NCBI RefSeq assembly: GCF_900290195.1 | Contig: NZ_OLMF01000004.1 | Location: 547,501-611,500, forward strand | Reading direction: 5' to 3' | DNA from: Anaerococcus marasmi | GTDB lineage: Bacteria; Bacillota; Clostridia; Tissierellales; Peptoniphilaceae | Length of the DNA stretch: 64,000 nucleotides | Part shown: positions 54,577 through 60,920 of the stretch, in pieces | How positions within the stretch are numbered: the stretch's first letter is position 1 | How the letters are laid out: each line of letters begins with the position of its first letter | Position numbers and translations under genes: made by a program | The notes under the pieces: model-generated | Told to the model about the DNA's origin: nothing | Database searches by the model: none | The model's input: only the letters and a program-made list of their open reading frames with translations

Positions 54577-56028
54577 CTAGTTTTTAGAATAGTTTGGTGA
54601 TTCTCTAGTTATTGTGATATTGTGTGGGTGATTTTCTATAAGGGAAGCTGGAGTTATTTTTATAAACTGAGCCTTTTCATAAAGTTCAGCTAAGTCCTTG
54701 CTTCCAACATAGCCCATTCCTGATTTTAGTCCACCCAAGAGTTGGTAGACTACCTCTCCAACAGGACCCTTGTAGGCAACTCTTCCCTCAACTCCTTCAG
54801 GAACGTACTTTTTGGTATTAGTTTGGAAATATCTATCTCCAGATCCATCCTTCATAGCAGCAAGGGATCCCATACCGCGGTATTCCTTGTATTGTCTTCC
54901 CTCAAAGAGAATTGTATCTCCAGGAGATTCCTCAGTACCAGCAAAGAGGGAACCTGCCATTATTACATCTGCCCCACAGGCTAAAGCCTTGGTTATATCT
55001 CCAGAATACTTGATACCACCATCTGCTATTACTGGAATGTCGTATTTTTTGGCTTCCTCTACACAATCGATGATAGCAGTAATTTGTGGAACTCCTATAC
55101 CAGTTACAACTCTAGTTGTACATATTGATCCTGGTCCGATACCTACTTTCACACAGTCAACACCAGCTTCAATCAAGTCACGAGTAGCATGAGCTGTTGC
55201 GACATTTCCTGCTATGAGGTCTAGGTCTGGATATTTTTCTTTGATCTTTCTTATAGCAGAAAGGACGTTTTTGGAATGACCATGGGCAGTATCAAGGGTT
55301 ATAACATCAACATTGGCAGCAACTAAGGCATCTACCCTATCCATCATATCATTGGTAATACCAACAGCTGCTCCGACTACTAATCTATTATTAGCGTCCC
55401 TTGCAGATCTAGGATATTGCTTGGACTTTTCGATATCTTTTATTGTGATAAGTCCCTTTAGCTTGTAGTCCTCATCTACTATAGGAAGCTTTTCGATTTT
55501 GCTTTCTTCCATAAGTCCTATGGCTTCTTTCATCTTGATTCCCTCATAACCTACAACCAAGTTTTCCTTAGTCATAATAGAATCAATTACAAGATTTGGA
55601 TCTTCGACAAACCTTACGTCTCTATTGGTTAGAATACCCTTAAGATACATGTCCTTATCGACTATTGGAACTCCTGAAATCCTATAGTTTTTCATTATAT
55701 CTAAGGCATCTTGGAGGAGGTTTTCTGGATGAAGGTAGAAGGGATCTGTTATCACTCCATGTTCTGACCTTTTTACAACATCAACTTGCCTAGCTTGCTC
55801 ATTTATAGGCATATTTTTGTGGATAATTCCTATACCACCTTGTCTTGCCATGGCTATAGCCATTTGAGATTCTGTTACAGTATCCATACCAGCAGACATT
55901 ATTGGTATGTTTAGTTTTATTTTCTTGGTAAGATTGGTTGTAGTATCTACCTCGTTTGGTAGGACTTCCGAAGGTCCTGGTACTAGTAGAACGTCATCAA
56001 AGGTTAATCCGTCTCCTAAAAATTTCAT
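54577..56028 (-). CDS. guaB: IMP dehydrogenase (GuaB)
   Basis: 483 residues, NAD-dependent oxidation of IMP to XMP, the branch to GMP. Barrel start [15 protein letters not shown], tandem CBS domains (about 90-200; VTDPFYLHP ... [15 protein letters not shown]), catalytic loop [17 protein letters not shown] with the nucleophilic Cys, and flap [16 protein letters not shown]. Position inside the IMP-synthesis operon is unusual, as guaB is normally elsewhere. Overlaps purD::purL by four bases and precedes purE by eight. Confidence 0.96.
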
Positions 56029-59000: not shown

Positions 59001-60920
59001 TGTGTTAAAGGTCGTATGCCTACAGTGATCTGACCAATAAGTATCTAGGATTTTAATTTCAGTCTCGTTTGGATCGCGGTTTTCACTTATAAAATAATCG
59101 CGAACCATCCTTAAGTCATCAAGGCTCATAGCCAAGGAGTTATCTTCTAAAAAGATTCTAAGTTTATCATCATCAAAATCCCTAAATCCGTCATAGCTTA
59201 TGTTTTCTAGATTTTTCGCATGGCTTAATTTAAGGCTTGTGGGAATTCCTAAGAGATTTACCCTATGAGAATCTACTGGATTAATGATAAAGTCCTCAAT
59301 GCTATCAAGCTCTTCTGAGCTTGCCCCTTCGATTTCGTAGACCGTAGCAGCCCTTACTAAAAGATTTGGATCATCTATTACAAGCGATGCTGCATCTAAA
59401 ATGCCTTGCTCCCTTTGGTTAAATTGACCTGGTAGATATTCGCTCACTATAGTATTTTTAAAGCTTTCTTGAAGCTTAAGAGCATCATCAAAGGCGTAAG
59501 CTGAATCTACCGGAGCTTCGGCAAGGACTGTGTAGAGAAGTTTTTCTATATTTTTATCTTCAGTTTCTAGGTCATATCTTTTGTAAATCTTAATAGATTC
59601 AAGATTAATCCCTAGAGAATTTCGGATTTTTTTCCTTAGATTTTTAGATTCAAAGTCGTAAGCATCCTTCTTCTTAACATAAACTCTCTTAACTGATGGT
59701 CCAATATCCTTCCTGTAATACTTACCATCAAAGTGGATTTTCTCACTGTCCTCATAGACTCTTGCAATAGCCTCATCAAAGCTATCACTTACCGAAAGGA
59801 TATTTAGGACCCTTCCGCCAGCTGTTAGGATCTTTCCTTCGTCTTTCTTTGTGCCAGCATGGATTATTTTTGATTTAATTCCCTCATCAAATGTTATCTC
59901 CTTTGAGACTTCATATGATAGAGGATAGCCTTCTGATGCTAGAACCAAAGAGACTGCTTTCTTGTCATTAATTTCTAGATTAACTTGGTCTAGCTTTTTA
60001 GAAGAAGTTTTCATAAGTAGGTCTAATATATCATTATCTATAAGCTCTAATACGACCTGGGTTTCAGGATCTCCGAATCTTACATTGAACTCTAGAACAT
60101 AAATTCCTGATTCATTAATCATAAATCCTATGAAAAGGACTCCTCTGTAGTCGATATTTTCTTTCCTAAAACCCTCTATAATTTTAGGAAGTATATCTTC
60201 ACTTATCTTTTCCTTAAAGGCTTCTGCCTCGACATTGGGAGCATATGTTCCCATCCCGCCAGTGTTTGGGCCAATTTCTCTATCATAGATTTTCTTATGG
60301 TCCTTAGCTGTTGGGAGAGGAATTATAGTAGATGAATCTGTTAGGGCAAGGAGGCTCATCTCAAATCCATCTATAAATTCTTCTATAATTAAGAATTTAT
60401 CCATGGCAAGGATTTCTGAAGCTTTCTCCCTAAACTCGCTTAGCTTATCTATGATAAAAACTCCCTTACCTCCAGCAAGACCATCTCTTTTTAGGACAAG
60501 TTTTCCTTTTTCTTTTATTAGCTTTTCTCCATAGGCTAGGATTTCTTCTTTATCTTCGCTCCTAAGATAGGCTGGTGTCTTTATTTTGTATTTTTCTAGA
60601 AAATTCTTGCAATAAGTCTTGCTTGATTCGAACTTAGAAGCCTTCTTATTAACTCCAAAAACACTTAAATCATTTTCTTGGAATCTGTCTACTAGGCCCA
60701 TACATAGGGGATCTTCTGGTCCCACTATTGTATAATCAATTTCTTCTTCCTTGGCAAATTCTACAAGCTTTTCAATATCAGTAGCTTCTATATCTATATT
60801 TTCGCCAATTTCACTCGTACCAGCGTTTCCTGGAGCAAAATAAAGTTTTCTATCAGAAGACTTAATTTTCTCTCCCAGGGCGTGCTCTCTTCCACCAGAT
60901 CCTACAATTAAAATTTTCAT
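56025..60920 (-). CDS. Fused GAR synthetase-FGAM synthase (PurD::PurL)
   Basis: 1631 residues in one open frame. Residues 1-408 are Pur[15 protein letters not shown]-grasp with [22 protein letters not shown] and [13 protein letters not shown]. From about 411 the long single-chain PurL begins directly ([19 protein letters not shown]), with no linker: N-terminal PurS-like domain, HRAG-type [20 protein letters not shown] site [35 protein letters not shown] and C-terminal glutaminase with Cys in GICNGFQAL and His/Glu in ISHGEGRF. The junction codon is near 59696; no stop, ATG or ribosome site splits it. It does two nonadjacent pathway steps (2 and 4). Cotranscribed with purH upstream (9 bases). 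Confidence 0.93.

Follow-up and report, generated by a model that had tools for sequence, protein, structure and literature searches.

We analysed a 64,000-nucleotide stretch of the Anaerococcus marasmi genome (hereafter, the window), the minus strand of which carries at 56025-60920 a single open frame of 1631 codons that starts with ATG and has no internal stop. This frame belongs to a purine operon with the gene order purF-purN-purH-[purD-purL]-guaB-purE-purM-purC (Table 1), where purN and purM are both separate genes, the former in the same operon as the first-pass annotation had stated. An Rfam scan of the window and of locus L051 returned nothing at the gathering threshold. Next to the operon, at 47948-52233 on the minus strand, we noticed a set of putative citrate synthase-, isocitrate dehydrogenase-, and aconitase-like genes. 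Genomes G006 and G004 have the same set, and in G005 two of these three genes were seen.

Table 1. Coordinates of the fusion, its operon neighbours, and the relic genes (window positions, unless a locus is given)
Feature	Position	Strand	Remarks and basis
purC	52382..53062	-	window ORF
purM	53073..54092	-	separate gene; window ORF
purE	54092..54568	-	window ORF
guaB	54577..56028	-	start overlaps the fusion end by 4 bases; window ORF
PurL part (long FGAM synthase)	56025..59696	-	residues 409-1631 plus stop; TIGR01857 at 411-1626
PurD/PurL junction	59682..59711	-	codons 404-413, no linker
PurD part (GAR synthetase)	59697..60920	-	fusion residues 1-408; TIGR00877
purH	60930..62435	-	upstream neighbour of the fusion; window ORF
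purN	62432..62977	-	separate gene, its step falling between those of PurD and PurL; window ORF
purF	62974..63999	-	extends beyond the window (length in locus L051, 447 aa); window ORF
Relic PurD with decaying PurL N-terminal tail	L175:7799-9556	-	ORF
Relic PurD with decaying PurL N-terminal tail	L176:11338-13026	+	ORF

Profile searches against NCBIfam bore out the initial description of the frame as PurD in the first 408 residues followed by a full-length long PurL. The purD profile TIGR00877 matches residues 1-408 with 440 bits against a cut-off of 288 (profile positions 1-421 of 425), and the FGAM synthase profile TIGR01857 matches residues 411-1626 over its whole length (1-1239 of 1239) with 1475.5 bits against a cut-off of 1057, and by these scores neither half stands out from its family, the separate PurD or the long PurL of Clostridia. 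The one match ends at residue 408 and the other starts at residue 411, and the junction has no spacer or linker, again as first described. Moreover, Pfam identifies three GARS domains, AIRS_C, the FGAR-AT linker, and GATase_5 along the chain. The PurL part retains C1479, H1546, and E1548, the glutaminase Cys-His-Glu triad, and of 13 further PurL positions compared across 93 rows, 11 are invariant throughout and the other two are conserved in 88 and 92. In its own genome, the fusion protein gives only one match. Between codons 381 and 640, the first in-frame ATG, GTG, or TTG past the joint is a GTG at residue 492, and so an internal start for a full PurL is unlikely. Taken as predicted enzymes, PurD and PurL are thus confirmed as a real linkerless fusion that places steps 2 and 4 of the pathway in one chain.

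With regard to the junction itself, the start of PurL directly abuts the DI[G/A/S]P end of PurD in the Peptoniphilaceae fusions whose joints were inspected. Between the window and G006, codons 396-425 give a dN of 0 and a dS of 0.28, with no amino acid change at the joint, and for this pair the values suggest that the joint is under selection; in two more distant pairs, dS at the joint is saturated. A structure model of residues 1-640 is confident across the joint (mean pLDDT 90, pTM 0.83), and a pTM of this size could mean that the two parts pack against each other in a fixed way, and hence in a functional arrangement. Among the 50 rows shown in a fold comparison are GAR synthetases alongside further proteins of the ATP-grasp type, with PurL chains absent, an absence that is no evidence against the PurL identity.

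Within Peptoniphilaceae, the family to which NCBI assigns Anaerococcus, the uninterrupted fusion is present in 56 of 130 whole genomes and in 16 genera, each case being checked by its open reading frame. In G004, contig ends divide the fusion gene at some distance from the joint, and one piece crosses the joint. Identity to the window's fusion ranges from 95 down to 48 per cent across the family, with the joint linkerless in those inspected. The concern raised at the outset, that a sequencing or assembly error near 59.7 kb might mask a stop, is next to impossible, as 55 other family genomes read across the same joint without a stop, which refutes it, and we found no support for an error at about this position.

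Some PurLs in the family depart from the usual state. In G023 (L050), G030 (L038), and G080 (L194), PurL or the fusion is in pieces, the G080 case being a further, broken fusion copy, and these broken copies may reflect either the decay of purine synthesis in some species or sequence errors. The glutaminase cysteine is lost in six of the 93 PurLs, these being L026 (G031), L190 (G100), L177 and L178 (G121, G122), L215 (G110), and L218 (G089), four of which also lack the histidine, while the 11 other checked positions are unchanged. In the PurL of L185 (G099), the histidine alone is lost. PurLs that lack glutaminase residues may run on free ammonia. Separately, five Anaerococcus genomes (L040, L041, L059, L060, and L061) carry a very different, fully unfused purine operon, whose PurL is 45 per cent identical to that of the window.

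To place the fusion among its relatives, we used a PurD tree of 85 rows and a PurL tree of 93 rows, both from quick searches and both flagged for long branches and uneven letter make-up. These included 50 of the 56 fusions (G004, G062, G065, G066, G075, and G078 were omitted), left aside the broken PurLs of G023, G030, and G080, and took four of the 14 g57 genomes into the PurL tree and three into the PurD tree. In the PurD tree, every unfused PurD falls outside a single clade (SH-aLRT 99) made up of the 50 fused PurDs together with two relics (see below). The PurL tree has a clade of 66 rows (support 100) in which the 50 fused PurLs are joined by 16 unfused ones, which sit in two places, namely six from Anaerococcus next to the fused G017 and ten from g57, g5, g55, g41, and g38. 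AU tests rejected both a single clade of the fused PurLs (p-AU 3e-56) and a single clade of all 16 unfused PurLs (p-AU 1e-64), p values that are weakened by the groups having been chosen after inspection of the tree.

The unfused Anaerococcus PurLs begin at the former joint (for example, MKKSVKRIYV as against GPSVKRVYV) and lie directly behind purH. In a tree of purH and guaB (19 rows), eight Anaerococcus genomes that lack the fusion, of which two have a broken PurL, form one clade (99/100) that is sister to the fused G017 with weaker support (82/95), and this is the topology expected if purD was excised in place. An origin of the excision by an AAGGA direct repeat was considered and is not claimed, the fused sister G017 having no such repeat at the borders. 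Leaving g55 aside, the nine PurDs sampled from the separated lineages group with separate PurDs in another clade and lie in another operon.

As for g55, genomes G121 and G122 have a separate PurL, and the open frames of their PurD span 585 and 562 codons. This PurD falls within the fused PurD clade and keeps the DIGP joint, and the tails of 135 and 141 residues that follow reach 39.5 and 41.7 bits with a profile for the N-terminal region of PurL (the best of 100 shuffles reached 5.8). Evolution is faster in the tail than in the PurD part (dN/dS of 0.35 vs 0.10), and a Pfam search of the tail found no PurL domain. Judged from its sequence, the g55 PurD with its tail is a decaying relic of the fusion.

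For these relationships, the simplest history, and the one the trees favour, would be a single gain of the fusion in the family, followed by at least two separations that retained purL. The tree alone is insufficient for the one-gain reading, which we draw from three things together, namely the joint that the fusions have in common, the one PurD clade, and the relic in g55; as a history of gain and loss, it rests on gene trees, with the root and any horizontal transfer of purL outside their reach. That unfused PurL was instead ancestral and was fused several times independently within the family would agree with the nesting of unfused PurLs among fused ones and with a separate fusion in a Christensenellaceae metagenome-assembled genome (L103), from which we see that such events can recur. 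Nevertheless, all fused PurDs of the family fall in one clade, the linkerless joint is the same in the family fusions inspected, and g55 has a PurD of the fused clade that retains the joint and a piece of PurL, and so we regard repeated fusion as quite improbable.

Outside the family, apparent fusions had to be checked by open reading frame, given that the genome search translates through stops. Among the matches listed for a class sample of 391 genomes, ten spanning rows were in the family and 16 outside it, and in all 16 of the latter purD and purL share a frame and are separated by a stop. Comparison with the ORFs likewise showed frames of 975-999 and 1733-1745 aa to be read-through into neighbouring genes. 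For an order sample of 150 genomes, no stop-free spanning row outside the family was among the matches listed; in both samples, a fusion that aligns as two pieces would escape. We also examined 80 named loci of 593 candidates, by a ranking that favours in-frame neighbours, and found four fused (L079, L080, L088, and L103), 23 with the genes adjacent in one frame within 90 nt and with one or more stop codons between, three adjacent in another frame, three with both genes apart, and 47 without purD in the sequence piece examined. In two of the 23 one-frame loci, the aligned PurL start comes 3 nt after the stop, and in L044, from the same family, separate purD and purL genes overlap by 4 bases. 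In clostridial relatives the two genes are often adjacent with a stop between, whereas in the window they form one chain, and the adjacent one-frame arrangement is likely the starting state of the fusion. The L103 fusion is the one true fusion observed outside the family, with seven residues between the aligned ends; its PurD is cut by the contig start, and it is placed apart in both trees.

The pairing of purD with purL is already known as a kind. In PMC3890548, purD-purL fusions were reported in 2014 for Clostridium novyi NT (NT01CX_2418) and for C. botulinum, printed there as BKT105925 (CbC4_1757). The assertion in the first-pass annotation that known purine fusions combine only other partners thus does not stand, and the frequent reporting that it named as a refutation applies in part, the pairing being in print for these two clostridia. 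As that source describes them, the same two families are joined with PurD N-terminal in one large chain, which is also what we find in the window; the two species belong to another clostridial group, and the likeness is one of description rather than of sequence. We found no earlier report of the spread in Peptoniphilaceae, the separations, or the relic in the literature searched, which covered few subscription journals. The TrifGART protein (GARS-AIRS-GART) is similar to the Anaerococcus fusion in joining PurD with purine enzymes out of step order (2, 3, and 5), but it contains PurM and PurN rather than PurL, and in Anaerococcus these two come from separate window ORFs. The PurN-PurH1 fusion of Halobacteria (PMC3261824) is likewise a lineage-specific prokaryotic purine gene fusion, although with other partners. 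Among such cases, the Anaerococcus fusion is real and conserved.

As to what the fusion does, we consider it probable that it is a bifunctional PurD-PurL with one origin in the family by loss of a stop, serving mainly for equal amounts and co-location and having no dedicated channel. Here, the first 408 residues would make GAR, which would leave the fusion for formylation by the separate PurN, and the PurL part would then take up FGAR and make FGAM. Neighbouring purD and purL genes would have lost the intervening stop once, in the ancestor of the family, and the tether would mainly fix the equal amounts and co-location of two enzymes from one operon. This reading builds on the frame, the domains, the checked PurL residues, the conservation, and the trees; from these it infers that both halves are active, that the fusion arose by stop loss and was gained once, and that a dedicated channel is lacking. 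Against it, steps 2 and 4 are non-consecutive, and so the benefit of the tether is not obvious, and the possible fixed packing in the model of residues 1-640 also weighs against it. Out-of-order steps in a fusion are nothing special, TrifGART joining 2, 3, and 5. The fusion is not indispensable, having been dissolved at least twice according to the trees, and this repeated loss fits a modest benefit, with equal amounts and co-location sufficing to explain the fusion.

A reading that overlaps with this one, and differs solely in that the tether brings no benefit, takes the fusion as a near-neutral accident, with the stop between adjacent genes lost and the product kept as harmless. The relatives in which only stop codons separate the two genes in one frame, with the aligned PurL start sometimes as near as 3 nt, speak for this reading, as do the two lineages that now lack the fusion, with their sampled purDs, g55 apart, coming from another clade. 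Even so, the unchanged joint with which 56 of the 130 genomes, spread over 16 genera, have kept the fusion, and the want of any amino acid change between the window and G006 at codons 396-425, lead us to see it as a possibility that falls somewhat short of an even chance.

More elaborate is the proposal of a three-enzyme module covering steps 2 to 4, in which PurN would sit between the two halves of the fusion and GAR and FGAR would be channelled. In its favour, purN shares the operon with the fusion in 12 of the 12 mapped fused operon pieces that contain the fusion start, the joint is linkerless, conserved, and confidently modelled, and a two-hybrid screen of the purine enzymes of Escherichia coli shows them to be densely linked in pairs, as given in the available part of PMC10912719. 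The channelling evidence reviewed in that part, however, concerns PRA and PurF-PurD and not PurD-PurL, and at least two lineages have separated PurD and PurL again, which makes the three-enzyme module unlikely. The first-pass annotation had suggested such a channel for unstable intermediates, an idea for which we find no support; the compounds that link PurD to PurL, GAR and FGAR, are not known to be unstable. A stricter version, with a rigid linkerless fusion that docks PurN and passes GAR and FGAR directly, and with the g55 tail as the remaining docking surface for the separate PurL, is to our mind very unlikely.

For annotation, the fusion is relevant in that, by the account in PMC3890548, a fusion of this kind led to draft reconstructions of two clostridia being predicted to lack purD. 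More broadly, the PurD-PurL fusion offers a natural and well-sampled case of a metabolic gene fusion, with its origin, long retention, in-place separation, and decaying relic all in one family. The Peptoniphilaceae case thereby permits a direct test of channelling versus mere co-production as the role of such fusions.
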